A stretch of 38,065 nucleotides of DNA from a virus. Under the pieces are notes generated by a model. The model was not told the origin of the DNA and did no database searches. It saw only the letters and a list, made by a program, of their open reading frames with translations. Shown here piece by piece: positions 2,134 to 8,934 of the stretch. The stretch is taken from IMG/VR virus record IMGVR_UViG_3300028569_000081, positions 1 through 38,065 of that record, one strand, 5' to 3'. Both the position numbers and the translations under genes were made by a program. How positions within the stretch are numbered: the first letter of the stretch is position 1; every line of letters begins with the position of its first letter.

Positions 2134-2289
2134 ATGATCGCCGTCGAAGTCGTGTTCGCGTCCGGGATGACGCACACATTCATCGTTCCGAAGACCATCA
2201 CATTGGTGGACTTCGCCGCCCTGGCCAAGCCGGTCGACGAGACCAAGATCCGTCGGTTCAAGGTCATCGCCCAGGGGAAGGCCGCATGA
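2134..2289 (+). CDS. Small hypothetical protein, 51 aa
   Basis: A 51-codon frame begins at ATG 2134, five bases after GAGGAGA of the conserved leader, and ends in TGA overlapping the ATG of the next gene (ATGA at 2286-2289). The protein is a short alternating beta/alpha sequence (MIAVEVVFASGMTHTFIVPK, then a basic C-terminus) with no recognised family. Its perfect placement between a strong ribosome site and a coupled downstream start is the main evidence that it is real. It was probably kept as the leader cistron that delivers ribosomes to the next gene, but a separate function cannot be excluded. Confidence 0.6.
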   Translation: MIAVEVVFASGMTHTFIVPKTITLVDFAALAKPVDETKIRRFKVIAQGKAA

Positions 2290-3062
2290 AGATCCTCGGT
2301 CACACGTATGCACCGAAGAAGGGGACGGTGGTCGACGGTCTGCCGGCCGTCATCGTGCTCGAGAGCGGCACGACCACCAAGTTCATCACGGACTCTCAGA
2401 TCGGCGATGCCGACTATCCGTGGTTGACCATCGTCTCGATGCCCACCAAGGAGTTCGAGACCAAGTTCGCGCGTACGCAGGATGATCTGCAGGCCATTGC
2501 CAAGATCTACCGCGAGCACGCCCAACAGCTCGGCGCAACGCCCGAGGCCCTGGATGCTCTGGGGTACATTTTCACCATCGACGAAGGAACTGTGAACATG
2601 GCCACCGCCACCGCCACCGCCACCGCCACCGAGGAGAAGAAGGCCAAGCCGGTCGCGACCTCCAAGGCCCCCACCAAGACCACCGCCCCGAAGCCGGCGG
2701 CCAAGGCCACCACCCCTCCGCCCGCCAAGGAGGCCAAGCCGAAGGCCGCGGCGCCGAAGGAGCCCGAGGAAAAGCGCCCCTCCGTGTCCAGCCGGATCTG
2801 CGAGCTGATCATGGCGGGGAAGCTGTCGGACGACGACATCTTCGCCACGGTGAAGAAGGAGTTCAACCTCGACGACTCCAAGCGCGGCTACGTCGGCTGG
2901 AACCGGAACCACCTGAAGAAGCAGGGCCAGAACCCGCCCGGCCCGATCGGTGGCGCCGAGAAGAAGGCGGACAAGCCGGCGGCTGCGCCGAAGGCCGCGG
3001 CCTCCAAGGCGCCGCCGGCCAAGGCCCCGGTCTCCCGCAAGACCGGCTCCGGCAAGGGCTGA
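2286..3062 (+). CDS. Early protein with Ala/Lys/Pro-rich linkers and the repeated helical domain, 258 aa
   Basis: The ATG at 2286 overlaps the previous stop. Residues 1-104 form an unrecognised folded region. Residues 105-160 are low-complexity: five Ala-Thr units, then Lys/Ala/Pro repeats like a histone H1 tail. Residues about 166-218 carry the helical domain shared with the 1588-2073 product (CELIMAGKLSDDDIF, GYVGWNRNHLKKQGQ). The tail is again Lys/Ala/Pro-rich. The basic tails suggest nucleic-acid binding (inference). An in-frame ATG at 2598 has AAGGA nine bases upstream, so a shorter 154-residue product starting just before the Ala-Thr repeat is possible. It directly precedes the modification cassette. 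Confidence 0.7.
   Translation: MKILGHTYAPKKGTVVDGLPAVIVLESGTTTKFITDSQIGDADYPWLTIVSMPTKEFETKFARTQDDLQAIAKIYREHAQQLGATPEALDALGYIFTIDEGTVNMATATATATATEEKKAKPVATSKAPTKTTAPKPAAKATTPPPAKEAKPKAAAPKEPEEKRPSVSSRICELIMAGKLSDDDIFATVKKEFNLDDSKRGYVGWNRNHLKKQGQNPPGPIGGAEKKADKPAAAPKAAASKAPPAKAPVSRKTGSGKG
2601..2630 (+). repeat. Five tandem GCCACC hexanucleotides inside a CDS
   Basis: Five perfect copies of GCCACC encode alternating Ala-Thr. They sit right after a possible internal start (ATG 2598) of the 2286-3062 gene. Copy number could vary by slippage in steps of two residues without shifting the frame. Confidence 0.9.
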
Positions 3063-3068
3063 TCCATC

Positions 3069-4070
3069 ATGGGGCTGTACCTCTACAGCCCCCTGACCTC
3101 TGTGACTGACCGCATCGAGGTCAGTCACAGAGCTGGGTGGGCTCTGTACTGGGCGGAAGAGCTCGGTGCCAAGCTGGTCACAACCAGCCAGATGGATGGC
3201 TTCGCCAACGGGGTCAACCCCGGCGACACCGTCTACCTCTACCACGGGATGGAGTTCAAGGACTCTTTGAACTTCCCCGGCGGCCCGCAGCCGGAGATTT
3301 ACGACCGGGCCAACGACCTCCGTCTCATCGGCGAGAAGACGGGCTCCAGACTGTTCAGCGCCGATCGTGACATGCCCGACTACGCCGGCCTGCTCGGCAG
3401 CCGCCTGGATCCCAAGCGCTTCGACCGGAAGAAGCTCCACGGAGCGCTTGCCCGAGGCGTGGGGCAGAGATGGCCGACGGCGAAGCCGAAGCACCTCGTG
3501 GTCGGCGACAGCCACTCCCTGTCTCTCTACCGGAAGGGCAGCAGGATCCATCGGAACGACGGACTGACCTTGTACGGTGCCCTCGAGAGGGGTCTGGCCG
3601 GTCTGGTCAAGAAAGCGGCGTGCCCAGGGCTAAGCAGCATCACGCTGTACCTGGGCAACATCGACATCCGGCACCACCTGCTCCGCCATCCGCAGGTCAG
3701 CCGGGTGGAGCTTCTCGCCGAATACCGTCGCCAACTCAAGGATCTGGTCAAGCAGTATCCGAAGCAGCAGATCGTGGTGGCGGAGCCTCTGCCCATTGAG
3801 AACGAGTCGCGGAAGCTGCCCAAGACCGGCTGGTACAAGGGCACCCCGTTCTTCGGCTCGTGGGCTGACCGAGCCAACCTTCGGGACTGGTGGGCTGACG
3901 AGATGAACAAGTGGCCGACGGACGGCATCACGATCTACCGCCATCCCCGCCACTTCTGGAACGGCGAAGGCGAGCTGGACTTCGACGTCATGGAGAAGCC
4001 GCAGTCCGTCCACATCAGGCCGGCTGAGTACCGGCATGTCAGGGAGAGCGGTCCATGGTCCAGCATCTGA
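3069..4070 (+). CDS. SGNH/GDSL-like protein in the DNA-modification cassette, 333 aa
   Basis: The sequence contains VVGDSHS at residues 144-150, a GDS block in which Ser148 would be the nucleophile; LYLGNIDIRHH near 193-203, matching the SGNH Gly/Asn block; and SVHIRP near 313-318, where His315 could be the catalytic base. This spacing fits an SGNH-hydrolase-like fold such as those seen in polysaccharide-modifying proteins, although the family of this protein is not known to me. The first 130 residues form an unrecognised alpha/beta region. The start at ATG 3069 lies six bases after the previous stop with only a weak AAGGGC ribosome site, and two strong hairpins fall within codons 1-22. The 3' end overlaps the transferase gene by 16 bases, so a role linked to base modification (for example acyl transfer or removal) is possible but inferred from context. 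Confidence 0.6.
   Translation: MGLYLYSPLTSVTDRIEVSHRAGWALYWAEELGAKLVTTSQMDGFANGVNPGDTVYLYHGMEFKDSLNFPGGPQPEIYDRANDLRLIGEKTGSRLFSADRDMPDYAGLLGSRLDPKRFDRKKLHGALARGVGQRWPTAKPKHLVVGDSHSLSLYRKGSRIHRNDGLTLYGALERGLAGLVKKAACPGLSSITLYLGNIDIRHHLLRHPQVSRVELLAEYRRQLKDLVKQYPKQQIVVAEPLPIENESRKLPKTGWYKGTPFFGSWADRANLRDWWADEMNKWPTDGITIYRHPRHFWNGEGELDFDVMEKPQSVHIRPAEYRHVRESGPWSSI
3071..3132 (+). promoter_or_regulatory. Two consecutive perfect hairpins at the start of the SGNH-like gene
   Basis: Hairpin 1: GGGGCTGTA (3071-3079), loop CCTC, TACAGCCCC (3084-3092), 9 of 9 pairs. Hairpin 2: CTCTGTGACTGACC (3098-3111), 7-base loop, GGTCAGTCACAGAG (3119-3132), 14 of 14 pairs. Both lie in the first 22 codons, starting two bases after the ATG. 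No T-run follows. They may control translation initiation, protect or process the mRNA between the small-gene cluster and the modification cassette, or form a protein-binding DNA palindrome. Confidence 0.7.
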
Positions 4071-5197
4071 AGAGCATCGAAGATGAAGCCAGGTCGAAAG
4101 ACCTGGTTATCATTTCCAAGACCGACGTGTGGCGCAAGCGTCTCCGGGAGGCGTCTCGCGCCATCGAGCGGGCCTCGGAGTTCAGCCTGACGCCCACCCC
4201 GTACTTCGTGGAGGCCTACCACTACTGGCACCGGGCGAAGGGTCTCCAGGACAAGAACCTAGGCGCCAAGCCGGCGAAGTTCAAGTCGGGGTGCGATCTT
4301 CAGGACAGCATCCCCATCTACGACACGGTGAAGCGTCGCTATGCTGGGTTCTCCAACGTTCTGGAACAGCTGCGGTACGGGGACGAGGCGCCGAAGATCG
4401 CCAGCAACCGGCTCCGCCAGTTCGACTACCCCAAGTTCGAGGGCGACAACCGAGCATGGCTCTACGTCTGCCTGGTCCATCGCATCACCGGCTCAGGCGC
4501 CAGCTTCGAGCACGACCACGGCTGGCGAAACACGATTGTGCCAGAGATGGTGACTAAGCCGTCGATCCCTCTGATGGCTTCGTGGGTCAGCTACAACCGA
4601 AACCGGACGATGTTCACCAGCATCGGCAACCAGATCCCGCCGTTCAACAAGCTGAAGGACCCGTCCTTCCGACTGGCGGGGATCGAGTATCTTGTCACGA
4701 TCGCCCCGAAGCTGGTCGACGAGGTGTGGTCTTGGTTCGAGCACCGCCGTCGCCACAAAATGGGACCAGCCGGGATCAAGCTGGCCGCCGACCAGGTCCT
4801 GGCCTTCCAACGCGAGCTGGGCTGCAAGCAGTTCAAGTTCGTCCTGACGGCGTGGGTGATGGACATGGCCGAGTATCTGCCGGAGATGGTGGATCCCAAC
4901 TCGGACTGCTACCACGGGAAGAACGCGCAGGAGGCCTTGTCGGTCTGCCTTCGCCCCGCCGATGGCGTGCGCATGAACGCCCAGGAGTTCTTCGACCGGG
5001 GAACTCGGCTGTTCAGCGATCTGACCGGCACCCACCCGATGGACGTGGAAGACGCCAGCCCGGGCTGCGATCTGGTTCGGTGGTTGGAGAACTACGTCCC
5101 TCGCAATGGCTTCAGCCACGTGCTGGAGAACGGCCTGTTCAACAACTCGACCCTTCGCTACTTCAAGGGCCGCCAACCCGAAGGGAACTATCCGTGA
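4055..5197 (+). CDS. Probable amino acid:DNA transferase (alpha-glutamyl/putrescinyl thymine pyrophosphorylase type)
   Basis: A 380-residue, largely helical protein. Features include PTPYFVEAYHYWHRAK (47-62), RYAGFSNVLEQLRYGD (95-110), the central HRITGSGASFEHDHGWRNT (142-160) and MDVEDASPGCDLVRWLENY (329-347). These resemble the ADDT group, whose members replace a pyrophosphate on 5-(pyrophosphoryloxymethyl)-dU in DNA with an amino acid or polyamine to make hypermodified thymine. The assignment is from memory of the family and from context: the next genes encode a PLP enzyme, a thymidylate-kinase-like P-loop protein and a thymidylate-synthase-like enzyme, the expected partners. The ATG at 4055 overlaps the previous gene by 16 bases and has GGGAGAG about 8 bases upstream. 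The amino donor cannot be told from the sequence. An alternative is an unrelated helical DNA-glycosylase-like enzyme. Confidence 0.55.
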   Translation: MVQHLKSIEDEARSKDLVIISKTDVWRKRLREASRAIERASEFSLTPTPYFVEAYHYWHRAKGLQDKNLGAKPAKFKSGCDLQDSIPIYDTVKRRYAGFSNVLEQLRYGDEAPKIASNRLRQFDYPKFEGDNRAWLYVCLVHRITGSGASFEHDHGWRNTIVPEMVTKPSIPLMASWVSYNRNRTMFTSIGNQIPPFNKLKDPSFRLAGIEYLVTIAPKLVDEVWSWFEHRRRHKMGPAGIKLAADQVLAFQRELGCKQFKFVLTAWVMDMAEYLPEMVDPNSDCYHGKNAQEALSVCLRPADGVRMNAQEFFDRGTRLFSDLTGTHPMDVEDASPGCDLVRWLENYVPRNGFSHVLENGLFNNSTLRYFKGRQPEGNYP

Positions 5198-6120
5198 CTC
5201 ACACCAACCACACCTCTTCTCCATCCCACAAGGAGCTGGACCAGCTGGGTGAGTCCCGGCTCTGGGATCTGGTTCGGGACTGGCAGGATCCTCTGCCTCT
5301 CCCGCCGGTCGACAAGATCAAGCTGGACTCCAAGCGGACCATCTACGTGGTTCGCGATGACATTATGGGGTTCGGTACCAAGGCCAGGGCCGGCTCGGCT
5401 GCGCTGTTCCAGCCGGAGTACAAGAAGACCAAGACCATCGTCTACGTCGCTCCGCGGGTGGGGTGGGCGCCGATGTCGTTGGCCAAGCTGTGCCGTGATA
5501 CCAAGCGGAGGCTGATCCTGTTCGCCCCAGCAGCCGCGACGCCTTCCCAGCACCAGCTGACGGCCCACGCTCTCGGCGCCGACCTGAGGTTCGTCCGCGT
5601 GGCGGCCATGCCCAACCTCCAGCGGATGGCGCGGAAGTTCGCCGAGGACCATGGCTACACCTTCTTCCCGCTCGGTCTCGACGTACCGGCGGCCGTGGCA
5701 GGGATCGCCAAGACGGCTCGGCTGGTGGCGGACCGTGAGATCGACGACTTCCGGAAGGTCAAGGAGTTCTGGACGGTGATCAGCACCGGCGTGCTGAGCC
5801 GTGGTCTCCAGCTGGCCTGGCCCAGGGCCAAGGTCTTCGCCGTCGCTGTGGCGAGGAACATCCACGATGGCGAGAAGGGCAGGGCCGAGATCTTCAGCCA
5901 TCATCTGCCGTTCACGCAGAACGTCAAGGCGGACCTGGCTCCGCCGTTCCCTTCGGTCCTGTCCTACGATGCCAAGGCCTGGACCTTCATCAACGACCAC
6001 GCGTCCAACGGCGCCTGGTTCTGGAACGTGGCGGCTGAGCCGCCGGTCTCTCCCTCGAAAGGGGAGGTGCTGCGGTCGAATGTTGGCTGGAACGATATGT
6101 CAGCGTTCGATCACGCGTAG
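5194..6120 (+). CDS. PLP-dependent, tryptophan-synthase-beta-like (fold type II) enzyme
   Basis: The GTG at 5194 overlaps the transferase stop (GTGA), with AAGGGA upstream; the product is 308 residues. The core reads like a small fold-type-II PLP enzyme of the ACC-deaminase/threonine-synthase superfamily: RDDIMGFGTKAR at 54-65 with Lys63 as the likely Schiff-base lysine, a first Rossmann-like unit TIVYVAP..GWAPMSLAKLC, the ALGADLRFVRV segment at 126-136 typical of these folds, and a Thr-Gly turn, VISTGVLSRGLQLAWP (195-210), in the position of the Gly-rich phosphate loop. In known thymidine hypermodification pathways a PLP enzyme processes the amino acid after it is attached to the base, so tailoring (such as decarboxylation or side-chain cleavage) of the attached group is inferred. 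The C-terminal 50 residues are unassigned. Confidence 0.6.
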   Translation: MTHTNHTSSPSHKELDQLGESRLWDLVRDWQDPLPLPPVDKIKLDSKRTIYVVRDDIMGFGTKARAGSAALFQPEYKKTKTIVYVAPRVGWAPMSLAKLCRDTKRRLILFAPAAATPSQHQLTAHALGADLRFVRVAAMPNLQRMARKFAEDHGYTFFPLGLDVPAAVAGIAKTARLVADREIDDFRKVKEFWTVISTGVLSRGLQLAWPRAKVFAVAVARNIHDGEKGRAEIFSHHLPFTQNVKADLAPPFPSVLSYDAKAWTFINDHASNGAWFWNVAAEPPVSPSKGEVLRSNVGWNDMSAFDHA

Positions 6121-6151
6121 TACTGTGCAACCCTGCTGAGGAGATATAGAC
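6121..6151 (+). promoter_or_regulatory. Candidate promoter and leader before the nucleotide-metabolism cassette
   Basis: TACTGT (6121-6126) occupies the same position as TACAAT in the 2083-2133 leader, and the following GCAACCCTGCTGAGGAGA matches that leader almost base for base. GAGGAGA gives a ribosome site for ATG 6152. No clear -35 sequence is seen; the upstream DNA is the end of the PLP-enzyme gene. Confidence 0.45.
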
Positions 6152-6670
6152 ATGGACGAGACAACAGCCAACTTTGCATTCCCGACGGAGGATGTGGACG
6201 ACGAGATCTATGATGTCCACCATTTTCACCAGAGGTTTGGCCAGCTGGCGCCGGATGAGATCACACATCTGACGCAGCGCAAGCTGGCAGAACGTGCCAA
6301 CTTCCATCTGGAGGAGGCGGTGGTTGAATTTCGCAAGGCGGCGGCAAGCCAGGATATGGCGCTGATGGCCGATGCGCTGGTCGACGCAGTCTATGTGCTG
6401 AAAGGCACCGCCGTGATGTTGGGGTTGACCGGTATTTGGCGACACCTGTGGAATGACGTCCACGAAGCCAACATGCGCAAGGTGCCGGGCACCACGCACC
6501 GCGGCAACAAGGTCGACGTGATGAAGCCGCCTGGCTGGGTCGGTCCGCAGACCGGAGCCGTGCTCTGCATGGCCGGCTATGACAAGGCCCAGTTCTGCAA
6601 CCTGCTCGGCGAAGTGGACGAGACCAAATGCCTCGACGACTTAGTCCACCTGGAGAAGGACAATCCGTGA
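6152..6670 (+). CDS. MazG/PRA-PH-like nucleotide pyrophosphohydrolase
   Basis: A 172-residue all-alpha protein. The pattern HHFHQRFGQ near residue 24, then ANFHLEEAVVEFRKA (49-63) and MALMADALVDAVYVLKGTA (70-88), followed by W..VHEANMRK, is that of the MazG/HisE-type NTP pyrophosphohydrolases: Glu-x-x-Glu and Asp-x-x-Asp pairs bind Mg2+ and cleave (d)NTP to (d)NMP and PPi. In phages such enzymes remove unwanted dNTPs such as dUTP or dTTP, supplying monophosphates for base modification. The ATG at 6152 follows the conserved GAGGAGA leader. The stop overlaps the next start as TGATG. The substrate is inferred from the neighbours, which use dNMPs. Confidence 0.75.
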   Translation: MDETTANFAFPTEDVDDEIYDVHHFHQRFGQLAPDEITHLTQRKLAERANFHLEEAVVEFRKAAASQDMALMADALVDAVYVLKGTAVMLGLTGIWRHLWNDVHEANMRKVPGTTHRGNKVDVMKPPGWVGPQTGAVLCMAGYDKAQFCNLLGEVDETKCLDDLVHLEKDNP

Positions 6671-7629
6671 TGACCATTTCCTCGAGGCTGACCATCTTCG
6701 AGGGCCCGGATGGCGGTGGCAAGTCCACCGCCGCTCGGCGTTTTGCCGAGAAGACCGGTGCCCGGTATGTCCACTGCGGGTCGTTCAAGAACGTCCAGCG
6801 GATCGGCCGGTTCTACGTGGAGGCCATGCTGCCGGCGCTGCTCGGCTATCAGGACGTGGTGATGGACCGGTGCTGGCTGAGCGAGAAGCCGTATGGTGAT
6901 GCCTTCCGCCAGGGTCATGATCGTCTCGGCGTGACCAGCGTCCGTGCGCTGGAGAGGCTGGCCTTCCGGTGCTCCACCCTTGTCGTGTGGTGCCTGCCGC
7001 CGTACGACCGGATCCGGTCCAGCTTCATGGAGCGGAAGCAGATCGAGATGTTGGAGGACGAGTCGCAGCTGAAGCAGGTGGACACGTCCTACCGCGGTGC
7101 CACGACGAGCCTGCCGTCGATCGTATACGACTACACGCGCACGCCGTTGCCGGCGCCTCGTGCCATGGACAGGCAGCGGTCAGTGGCGCACGGGCTGGAC
7201 TTCCAGACCGCCGGCAACCATTCGGCGCCCATCGCGCTGGTGGGCGAAGGCTTCTCCGAGCCGAAGGACGGGGACTGCCTGTACCAGTGGCCGTTCGGCT
7301 CTATGAACCACAGCCGCTGCAGCCACTGGCTGACGCAGAACCTGGAGGACGCTGGCATCAGTGAGTCCAGCCTCTTCTGGGTCAACTCCGACCAGGGGGA
7401 CCACGACGACATGCGCGAGATGCTCGGTGAGCGACGCCATGTCGTGGCTCTTGGGGCCAAAGCCCTGACCCGTCTGACCGAACTCGACATCGATTGCAGC
7501 GCCGTCGAGCACCCGCAGAGCTGGAAGAGGTTCAAGTCCTCGCAGCCCTACCCCCTCGGCAAGTTGTTGGCGGACGACATTCAGCTCGCCAACTCCATCT
7601 TCAAGACCATGCAAGGAGCAGCAGAATGA
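6670..7629 (+). CDS. Thymidylate-kinase-like P-loop kinase fused to a UDG-like domain (candidate 5-hmdU DNA kinase)
   Basis: The ATG at 6670 overlaps the previous stop (TGATG) with GGAGAAGGA about 8 bases upstream; the product is 319 residues. Residues 1-170 form a P-loop kinase of the thymidylate kinase group: Walker A EGPDGGGKST (11-20), DR at 66-67 in VVMDRCWLSEKPYG, and a lid-like region around 115-140. Residues 186-300 resemble a uracil-DNA glycosylase fold: IALVGEGFSEP (188-198), WPFGSMNHS (207-215), LFWVNSD (235-241), VVALGAKAL (258-266) and HPQSWKRF (281-288). The usual acidic catalytic residue of the first UDG motif is not evident, so the domain may only bind a flipped base. 5-hmdU DNA kinases belong to the thymidylate kinase family, and the fusion with a base-recognising domain fits a kinase acting on DNA. 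A free dNMP kinase remains possible. Confidence 0.65.
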   Translation: MTISSRLTIFEGPDGGGKSTAARRFAEKTGARYVHCGSFKNVQRIGRFYVEAMLPALLGYQDVVMDRCWLSEKPYGDAFRQGHDRLGVTSVRALERLAFRCSTLVVWCLPPYDRIRSSFMERKQIEMLEDESQLKQVDTSYRGATTSLPSIVYDYTRTPLPAPRAMDRQRSVAHGLDFQTAGNHSAPIALVGEGFSEPKDGDCLYQWPFGSMNHSRCSHWLTQNLEDAGISESSLFWVNSDQGDHDDMREMLGERRHVVALGAKALTRLTELDIDCSAVEHPQSWKRFKSSQPYPLGKLLADDIQLANSIFKTMQGAAE

Positions 7630-8447
7630 CCGAGAGTTTCGACCAGTCTTGGCTGAAGACCCTGGCCACGATCCTGGAGCAGGGCAAAGAGGTCTCGCCG
7701 CGCGGGATGAAGACTATGGAGGTGCCGCAATACACCGTCGAGGTGGACATGCGGTATCCCGTCCTGACATGCCCGCAACGCAAACTCAACTATCGGTTCA
7801 TGGCGGCCGAGGCGTTCTGGATCCTGTCGGGCGACAACACCGTCGCCGGCATCGCCCCGTGGAATGTCAACATCGCCAAGTTCAGCGACGACGGCGAGAC
7901 CTTCCATGGCGCCTACGGTCCTCGGATCGTGGACCAGCTGCCCTACGTGGTCGGCAAGCTCATCTCGGATCGGGACACTCGGCAGGCGGTCATCACGACC
8001 TGGATCCAGAAGCCCGGTGCTTCGAAGGACATTCCCTGCACGGTGGCCTTCGACTTCAAGATCCGCGACGGCAAGCTGAACCTCCACGTGTTCATGCGGT
8101 CGTCCGATGTCTGGCTCGGTCTGCCGTATGACACCTTCAACTTCTCGATGCTCGCCGCCCTGGTCTGCACGATCATCAACACCTTCGGCGGCGCCATGTG
8201 GGAGACCGTCGGCCTCGGGCGTCTCTTCCTGACGGCGGCCAGCAGCCATCTCTATGAGCAGCATTTCGAGGCTGCCCGCGAGTGCCTGAAGGTGCACGAT
8301 TTCCGGTTCTGCGCCGAAGTGCCGGAAGGTCTCTACGTGGCGATGGACAACGGCGACTCGCTGATGGAGTATCTTCGGACCCTCCGAGACGCCAAGAGGG
8401 GCGACAACCTTCGGTGGTGGGAGTTGGATCGTGCGTCCGACGCGTGA
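7626..8447 (+). CDS. Thymidylate-synthase-family enzyme, probable (d)CMP/dUMP hydroxymethylase
   Basis: 273 residues, start ATG 7626 overlapping the kinase stop (ATGA). The thymidylate synthase fold is clear: Glu62 in AAEAFWILSGD, HGAYGPR (94-100), catalytic Cys138 in DIPCTVAF, RSSDVWLGLPYD (158-169) and SSHLYEQH (206-213). Two departures stand out. The Asn that selects dUMP (E. coli Asn177, in LGLPFN) is Asp169 here, the change that in T4 gp42 goes with dCMP specificity. The His after the catalytic Cys is Thr. The C-terminal folate-closing tail of true thymidylate synthases is missing. The enzyme is therefore more likely a hydroxymethylase than a dTMP maker. Given the dCMP deaminase next door, it might make 5-hydroxymethyl-dCMP or -dUMP; the sequence favours dCMP. 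Confidence 0.85.
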   Translation: MTESFDQSWLKTLATILEQGKEVSPRGMKTMEVPQYTVEVDMRYPVLTCPQRKLNYRFMAAEAFWILSGDNTVAGIAPWNVNIAKFSDDGETFHGAYGPRIVDQLPYVVGKLISDRDTRQAVITTWIQKPGASKDIPCTVAFDFKIRDGKLNLHVFMRSSDVWLGLPYDTFNFSMLAALVCTIINTFGGAMWETVGLGRLFLTAASSHLYEQHFEAARECLKVHDFRFCAEVPEGLYVAMDNGDSLMEYLRTLRDAKRGDNLRWWELDRASDA

Positions 8448-8934
8448 ACGCTGGGCCATGGACATGGCCCTCCTGACGGCGAAGCGGTCCACGTGCTGCC
8501 GTCGCCAGGTCGGCTGTGTCCTGCTGAACGAGCGCGGCCACGTCCTCGCCACTGGATACAACGGCGTGGCTGCCGGTCTTCCGCACTGCAATGATAGGGT
8601 CTTGGAAGATCCTGTCGACGTCGGGCTCTCCCACGCAGGACTTGTCGGTAGGCAGGTCACGTACCCGTTTGCCTGCGAGGGTGCGGCGTCCCCGTCCGGC
8701 ACCAACCTCGATGCCTGCCAGGCGATCCACGCAGAGCAGAACGCTCTGCTGCAGTGTAGAGACGTCTACGCCATCGACACGACTTTCGTGACGGCGAGCC
8801 CATGCGTGACCTGCACGAAGCTGCTGCTCAACACGGGCTGCAGGAGGGTGGTGTACCTGGAGGAGTATCCGCACTCGGCGGCCAGGGAGCTGTGGCTCTC
8901 CGCTGGCCGCCAGTGGGAGAAGATAGAGGCCTAG
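8431..8934 (+). CDS. dCMP deaminase
   Basis: 167 residues of the cytidine/deoxycytidylate deaminase family. Zinc ligands and catalytic residues are visible: His100 and Glu102 in IHAEQNALL, and Cys125 and Cys128 in SPCVTCTK. The N-terminal AKRSTCCRRQVGCVLL and GYNG motifs are typical of dCMP deaminases. The start is GTG 8431, overlapping the upstream gene by 17 bases with GGGAG upstream; the later ATG 8458 would cut conserved sequence. It converts dCMP to dUMP, and phage enzymes may also accept 5-substituted dCMP. It is the last gene of the plus-strand block, and its stop lies inside a terminator hairpin. Confidence 0.9.
   Translation: MRPTRERWAMDMALLTAKRSTCCRRQVGCVLLNERGHVLATGYNGVAAGLPHCNDRVLEDPVDVGLSHAGLVGRQVTYPFACEGAASPSGTNLDACQAIHAEQNALLQCRDVYAIDTTFVTASPCVTCTKLLLNTGCRRVVYLEEYPHSAARELWLSAGRQWEKIEA

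Follow-up and report, generated by a model that had tools for sequence, protein, structure and literature searches.

Phages that hypermodify the pyrimidines of their DNA provide the closest described parallels to the gene cluster examined here. In phage M6, a thymine pathway leads to 5-(2-aminoethyl)-2′-deoxyuridine (5-NedU); we take this pathway to comprise the amino acid:DNA transferase (ADDT) gp51, the pyridoxal 5′-phosphate (PLP) enzyme gp52, the radical S-adenosylmethionine (SAM) protein gp53, the 5-hydroxymethyl-2′-deoxyuridine (5-hmdU) DNA kinase (HMUDK) gp54, HMUDK_hel gp55, and the thymidylate synthase (TS) family member gp58. The hypermodified cytosines known so far mainly carry sugars, a carbamoyl group, or carboxymethyl-derived amides, and the 5-hydroxymethylcytosine (hmC) pathway of phage T4 runs by way of gp42, gp56, gp1, cd, and glucosyltransferases. 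Here, we describe a seven-gene cluster (positions 3069–8934) in a 38,065-base virus record from IMG/VR (IMGVR_UViG_3300028569_000081; the whole stretch is called the window). Cassette 1 (3069–6120) encodes an SGNH enzyme, a protein of 380 amino acids (aa) with a predicted ADDT-like fold, and a fold-type II PLP enzyme, hereafter the trio. A gap of 31 bases (6121–6151) separates it from cassette 2 (6152–8934), which encodes a pyrophosphohydrolase, a kinase, a TS-family enzyme, and a dCMP deaminase.

This cluster resembles that of M6 in combining a TS-family hydroxymethylase, an ADDT-fold protein, and a homologous fold-type II PLP enzyme. Unlike M6, the window contains a cytosine-type TS and an SGNH protein, and yielded no match to HMUDK, HMUDK_hel, or Pfam ADDT, which the 380-aa protein matches by fold only; a radical SAM gene was not recognized in the window cluster. 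With T4, the window shares the logic of dCMP hydroxymethylase, dCTP removal, nucleotide kinase, and dCMP deaminase (PMC2993671), but the candidate decorators are SGNH, ADDT-fold, and PLP proteins, and no glucosyltransferase was recognized in the cluster. The 5-hydroxymethylcytosine carbamoyltransferase phages found by MetaGPA (PMC8670742) also encode a TS with Asp177, PRA-PH, and dCMP deaminase together with a decorating enzyme; in the window the trio stands in place of the carbamoyltransferase. The carboxymethylcytosine route of CmoX and CmoY (PMC12783734) likewise makes cytosine in phage DNA the attachment point of an amino acid, glycine, but it depends on carboxy-SAM (Cx-SAM) and an ATP-dependent amide ligase, and its enzymes were not recognized in the window cluster, although no specific search was made for them. 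Systems that hypermodify pyrimidines or supply hmC have been described before; for a cytosine-type hydroxymethylase in the company of an SGNH, a sequence-divergent ADDT-fold, and a PLP protein, we found no description in the open-access papers searched. The initial annotation of the cluster, made from the DNA letters alone, had named the SGNH-like protein as foreign to described pathways, and our survey agrees.

Results and Discussion

Target Base of the TS-Family Enzyme

In TS-family enzymes, Asn at position 177 (E. coli numbering) directs activity to dUMP and Asp directs it to dCMP. Alignment with known enzymes places Cys138, Thr139, and Asp169 of the window TS at E. coli positions 146, 147, and 177. 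Asp177 and Thr147 are common to the window TS, T4 gp42, and 44RR gp42, whereas the dUMP hydroxymethylases M6 gp58 and SPO1 gp29 carry Asn at both positions and E. coli ThyA contains Asn177 and His147. The same two positions were the top discriminators between cytosine-modified and unmodified phage contigs in MetaGPA (PMC8670742). The closest relative of the window TS in the PDB is the CMP 5-hydroxymethylase 5b6d (3.7e-28). Because of the Asp/Thr signature, the published discriminators, and the identity of the best solved relative, the substrate of this enzyme is most likely dCMP. As judged from sequence, cytosine and not thymine is very probably the base that is modified. The initial annotation had correctly recognized a TS-family hydroxymethylase (Pfam thymidylate synthase, 2.2e-25), but its choice of thymine as the modified base is not supported.

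Scans of IMG/VR first gave 26 loci; in later scans, the 380-aa protein had 239 relatives and the SGNH protein had at least 595. The best 80 of the 239 and the best 80 of the at least 595 were kept as 160 loci; the two sets share some contigs, and some loci end at contig ends. All 64 TS proteins from these loci that are readable at both positions contain Asp177 and Thr147, and Asn occurs in none. The TS proteins of trio loci span several lineages: that of locus L011 is 50% identical to T4 gp42, and the window TS falls outside this T4 gp42-like lineage. Since the trio accompanies different lineages of cytosine-type TS, it appears to be tied to cytosine. We hold with high confidence that the DNA modification is based on hmC. 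A further TS relative, H47 of Pseudoxanthomonas phage PW916, is 49% identical to the window TS and annotated as deoxyuridylate hydroxymethyltransferase; despite this annotation, it may be a cytosine-type enzyme.

The SGNH, ADDT-Fold, and PLP Proteins

The window SGNH protein contains the motifs GDSH (Ser148), GNID (196–199), and SVH (His315), which provide the block I GDS Ser, the block III Asn, and the block V His of the superfamily. Its AlphaFold model (predicted local distance difference test score, pLDDT, 88.5) has the corresponding fold and matches SGNH esterases such as 2hsj in a Foldseek search of the PDB (probability 1.00, E 9e-6). Motifs and structure prediction together bear out the SGNH-like protein that had been proposed for this position. 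A Pfam SGNH match (0.073) and matches of the ATG16 and GSCFA types were set aside as noise.

Searches of Pfam, PHROG, and PDB sequences, as well as tblastn against GenBank phages, gave no match for the 380-aa protein. Its predicted structure (pLDDT 88.2) is matched by Foldseek to the ADDT-named viral protein A0A6J5L8T5 (E 2.5e-16, probability 1.00, template modeling (TM) score 0.74, 26% identity) and to a second ADDT-named protein, A0A6J5LCY1 (2.3e-4). Weaker matches include an aGPT-Pplase1 protein and the SP10 5-hmdU DNA kinase. The ADDT profile PF18724 was unmatched in 29 members of the family. By its predicted fold, though not by sequence profile, this protein resembles ADDT, which partly bears out the earlier proposal of a probable amino acid:DNA transferase.

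The third member of the trio has the features of a fold-type II PLP enzyme, as the initial annotation had suspected. It matches Pfam PALP with an E value of 1.4e-6 (28.3 bits, where the curated cut-off is 35) and a PHROG of threonine dehydratases with 1.3e-33, and it contains the motif RDDxxxxGxK63xR (GTK63AR, with the Schiff-base Lys) and the phosphate loop STGVLSRGLQ. Cysteine synthases are also matched by its profile (4e-5). Comparison with M6 gp52 gave an hhalign probability of 97.3% (E 2.7e-11) and an hmmsearch E value of 4e-12. On these profile matches, the enzyme is homologous to gp52 of the thymine-hypermodifying phage M6. Close relatives of the PLP enzyme also occur inside a protein of Erythrobacter phage ZS04 annotated as a DNA methyltransferase (L003:2326–4764), and beside ParB and sulfiredoxin genes in Microcystis phage Mae-JY30 (L002:6387–8705). 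Neither record contains a member of the 380-aa family, and these proteins possibly represent another base-modification use of the PLP family.

The Trio across Viral Contigs

The three genes travel together. In the set of 80 loci retrieved with the 380-aa profile, SGNH and 380-aa genes share a locus in 76 and all three genes in 73; the corresponding counts for the 80 loci retrieved with the SGNH profile are 71 and 55. The order varies between SGNH-380-PLP and SGNH-PLP-380, and in L027 and L030 the SGNH and 380-aa domains form a single polypeptide. On the 225-kb contig of L030, the PLP gene (at 154.5 kb) lies some 150 kb from the fused gene, and the contig also encodes a cytosine-type TS at 15 kb. 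These distances indicate that the parts of the trio and the cytosine-type TS co-occur without being neighbors. The window region has no megablast match in GenBank phages. Conserved synteny of the block in many further viral contigs shows that the grouping did not arise by chance. A bacterial single-genome collection contained just two relatives, on a contig of a Gallionella metagenome-assembled genome and on a contig of a Rhodobacteraceae bin, both with the trio and an Asp-type TS. Profiles for the thymine-pathway families PF18748 (5-hmdU DNA kinase), PF18723 (HMUDK_hel), and PF18724 (ADDT) found no match on the window or on 16 related contigs, with a positive control on M6.

The Supply Cassette and Phage AXL3

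Cassette 2 is a supply module for 5-hydroxymethyl-dCTP (hm-dCTP). The pyrophosphohydrolase has a probable role in the removal of dCTP, and the substrate of the kinase is probably 5-hydroxymethyl-dCMP (hm-dCMP). The entire cassette recurs in Stenotrophomonas phage AXL3 (L105:6641–10675), with identities of 62% for dCMP deaminase, 51% for TS, 50% for the pyrophosphohydrolase, and 46% for the kinase with its tail, which resembles uracil-DNA glycosylase (UDG). The 380-aa and PLP families were not found in AXL3, and SGNH was found neither in the 18.8 kb examined nor by tblastn in the whole record. The DNA of AXL3 is cut by 2 of 37 restriction enzymes, both of which have A/T-only sites, and the authors of that study read the cassette as one for thymidylate synthesis (PMC7504290). 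This restriction pattern fits a modified C or G, and an hmC supply cassette in AXL3 would account for the resistance of its DNA. The AXL3 proteins published as thymidylate synthase and thymidylate kinase resemble the dCMP hydroxymethylase and kinase of the hmC supply cassette.

The kinase had been described as a fusion of a thymidylate-kinase-like protein with a UDG-like domain. The kinase part matches a PHROG of thymidylate kinases (1.9e-13). The tail gave two PDB sequence matches in all, both to records of the family-4 UDG TM0511 and both weak (E about 0.2), and in L005 and L006 the kinase occurs as a 220-aa form without it. We also considered that this protein might be a DNA kinase. This candidate was rejected: the gene accompanies the supply cassette of AXL3 and is missing from several trio loci. 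Since the UDG-tailed kinase belongs to the supply cassette and occurs in AXL3 in the absence of 380-aa and PLP genes, its presence in the window is no evidence of a DNA kinase. The kinase step of the thymine phages, which the initial annotation had associated with this gene, gives way to a function in nucleotide supply, and PF18748 has no match on the window.

SGNH Proteins in Cultured Aeromonas Phages

By way of tblastn, we detected the SGNH protein in 43 GenBank phage records: 38 from Aeromonas, 2 from Stenotrophomonas phage IME13, and 3 from Tenacibaculum phages. A strict search for gp42 returned 48 Aeromonas records, of which 47 were listed, including 9 fragments of 5–7 kb. The remaining 38 long listed records are the same accessions as the 38 Aeromonas records with SGNH, and both IME13 records also contain SGNH and gp42. 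A 2010 review noted that phages 44RR, 31, and 25 contain gene 42 and no glucosyltransferases, and left open whether hm-dCMP is modified in another way (PMC2993671). All 38 long gp42 records listed for Aeromonas carry the SGNH gene, which is a direct candidate for such a modification.

Phages 44RR (44RR2.8t) and AS4 resemble the window in that a homologous SGNH domain (E 1.5e-124) occurs in an hmC-supply phage, in their case fused to an extra C-terminal domain. This domain matches HMUDK_hel weakly (8e-4 to 4e-3, under the Pfam cut-off), and its comparison with the 380-aa family by hhalign was not significant in 44RR. Unlike the window, neither phage yielded a PLP homolog, and no 380-aa family member was found in 44RR. 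Phages 25 (L128) and Aes012 (L131:1752–5026) encode SGNH as a separate protein with two different genes next to it. In Aes012, these neighbors specify a UDP-galactopyranose mutase (GLF, 5e-54) and a protein of 358 aa that Pfam does not match and that is unrelated to the 380-aa family; from its N-terminus, this protein was considered as a possible glycosyltransferase. This arrangement suggests a sugar-based decoration of hmC in these two phages.

Proposed Pathway and Alternatives

We propose that the TS-family enzyme of the window converts dCMP to hm-dCMP, which the kinase, together with host kinases, would raise to hm-dCTP. With dCTP cleared by the pyrophosphohydrolase, the polymerase would place hmC in the DNA. 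There, the SGNH enzyme and the 380-aa ADDT-fold protein would target the 5-hydroxymethyl group. In our leading model, O-acylation of hmC by the SGNH enzyme would create a leaving group, taking over the part played in thymine phages by the phosphate from 5-hmdU DNA kinase; an amino acid, attached by the 380-aa protein, would displace this group, and the PLP enzyme would decarboxylate or otherwise trim the attached amino acid. Decarboxylation is proposed by analogy with the M6 pathway. That the trio acts on hmC in DNA is quite likely, and the pathway as a whole, in which the trio decorates hmC and from which the acyl step is set apart, is reasonably likely. Attachment of an amino acid to hmC we favor slightly, and SGNH as the activating step is a tentative assignment, less likely than not. 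Sequence and predicted fold show the enzyme classes, the cytosine-type TS signature, the adjacency and fusion of genes, and their genome-wide co-occurrence; we infer the presence of hmC in the DNA, the sequence of reactions, the acylation, and the nature of the amino acid.

A thymine hypermodification as in M6, ViI, and SP10, with a dUMP hydroxymethylase, a DNA kinase, and substitution by ADDT, would be in keeping with the homology of the PLP enzyme to M6 gp52, with the ADDT-like fold of the 380-aa protein, and with the dCMP deaminase, which is also present in M6. Against it stand the cytosine signature of the window TS and its 64 readable relatives, and the three thymine-pathway profiles that matched M6 and neither the window nor the 16 related contigs, so that this explanation is very improbable. 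Slightly less so, though still improbable, is the notion that the supply cassette makes hmC or 5-methylcytosine while the trio serves another function, such as cell-surface or small-molecule chemistry. SGNH and PLP enzymes have generic folds, and AXL3 demonstrates that a supply cassette can exist without 380-aa and PLP genes; yet the TS proteins readable near the trio are all cytosine-type and come from several lineages, the fold of the 380-aa protein matches DNA-base-modifying proteins, and SGNH follows gp42 in Aeromonas phages.

A third explanation keeps the hmC core of the pathway proposed above and differs from it in the role of SGNH. This enzyme could itself add a terminal group to hmC (an O-acyl or similar ester), or trim or acylate a group added by a partner, with a different group formed or attached by the 380-aa and PLP proteins; SGNH would then be a shared hmC accessory instead of the activating step. 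Its presence in every long listed gp42 Aeromonas record with varied partners (the C-terminal domain of the 44RR and AS4 proteins, the mutase and 358-aa protein in phage 25 and Aes012) agrees with such a role, but the SGNH-380 fusion in L027 and L030 points to steps taken jointly or in succession on a single base. We consider the accessory role somewhat unlikely.

Several observations weigh against the amino acid pathway on hmC. In phages 25 and Aes012, other SGNH partners take the place of the 380-aa and PLP genes, so that an activating role of SGNH in amino acid transfer does not necessarily follow. The SGNH motifs are kept across relatives except in L011–L020, where the block III Asn is replaced by Ser. 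Comparison of the 380-aa family (17, then 29 members) with M6-type ADDT and HMUDK_hel by hhalign gave probabilities below 3%, with positive controls for TS against T4 gp42 and for the PLP enzyme against M6 gp52, and a search of the PDB found no solved structure of the 380-aa fold. The kept loci are biased to close relatives because only the best 80 per scan were retained. Finally, an Asp-type TS could presumably yield 5-methyl-dCMP, as in XP12, instead of hm-dCMP.

If the proposed pathway is correct, grafting of an amino acid onto hmC by way of an esterase-fold enzyme would open a new branch of DNA chemistry. Given counts in IMG/VR of at least 595 for relatives of SGNH and 239 for those of the 380-aa protein, such a route would be common, and its DNA-modifying enzymes could provide useful reagents and insight into restriction evasion. 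We raise as a possibility, and with clear reservation, that a widespread, so far undescribed class of phage DNA contains an amino-acid-derived group on hmC, installed by SGNH (in place of the DNA kinase of thymine pathways) with a PLP enzyme and a transferase of the ADDT fold, and that in the 44RR- and 25-type Aeromonas phages hmC is likewise decorated by variants based on SGNH.

Gene Layout and Surroundings

All seven open reading frames of the initial annotation are present (Table 1), and its picture of a two-cassette system for pyrimidine hypermodification agrees with the enzyme families and with the gap between the cassettes. Its pyrophosphohydrolase and dCMP deaminase are confirmed by Pfam, and the overlaps of 4–17 bases reported within cassettes were measured, in order, as 16 (4055–4070), 4, 1–4, 4, and 17 bases. 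For the kinase gene, a start at 6667/6670 is more probable than one at 6628.

Table 1. Genes of the Proposed Modification Cluster in the Window
Product	Position	Strand	Evidence
SGNH-fold hydrolase/acyltransferase-like enzyme, 333 aa	3069–4070	+	PHROG 13881, 1.4e-49; AlphaFold and Foldseek; motifs
380-aa helical protein, putative amino acid:hmC-DNA transferase	4055–5197	+	Predicted ADDT-like fold
Fold-type II PLP enzyme, 308 aa	5194–6120	+	Pfam PALP, 1.4e-6 (below curated cut-off); profile match to M6 gp52
PRA-PH/MazG-like nucleoside triphosphate (NTP) pyrophosphohydrolase	6152–6670	+	Pfam PRA-PH, 8.8e-9; 50% identity to AXL3_30
P-loop nucleotide kinase with C-terminal UDG-like domain	6670–7629	+	PHROG thymidylate kinase, 1.9e-13; 46% identity to AXL3_29
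TS-family enzyme, predicted dCMP hydroxymethylase	7626–8447	+	Pfam thymidylate synthase, 2.2e-25; PDB 5b6d; Asp/Thr signature
dCMP deaminase	8431–8934	+	Pfam dCMP_cyt_deam_1, 1.1e-20; PHROG dCMP deaminase, 1.5e-42; 62% identity to AXL3_27

The modification genes form a plus-strand operon 3′ of a helicase gene. Since the minus strand of the window codes for portal, head closure, DNA-ejection, and endolysin/tail-fiber proteins, the DNA belongs to a tailed phage. These minus-strand genes (9472–36185) include a portal, the head closure protein Hc3, DNA-ejection, endolysin-like, and tail-fiber/depolymerase-like proteins, and the virion gene set looks like that of a P22-type podovirus. Upstream of the operon, the proteins encoded at 1588–2073 and 2286–3062 share PHROGs 17205 and 34102 (unknown function), and the product of 2286–3062 has a long tail rich in Ala, Lys, and Pro.

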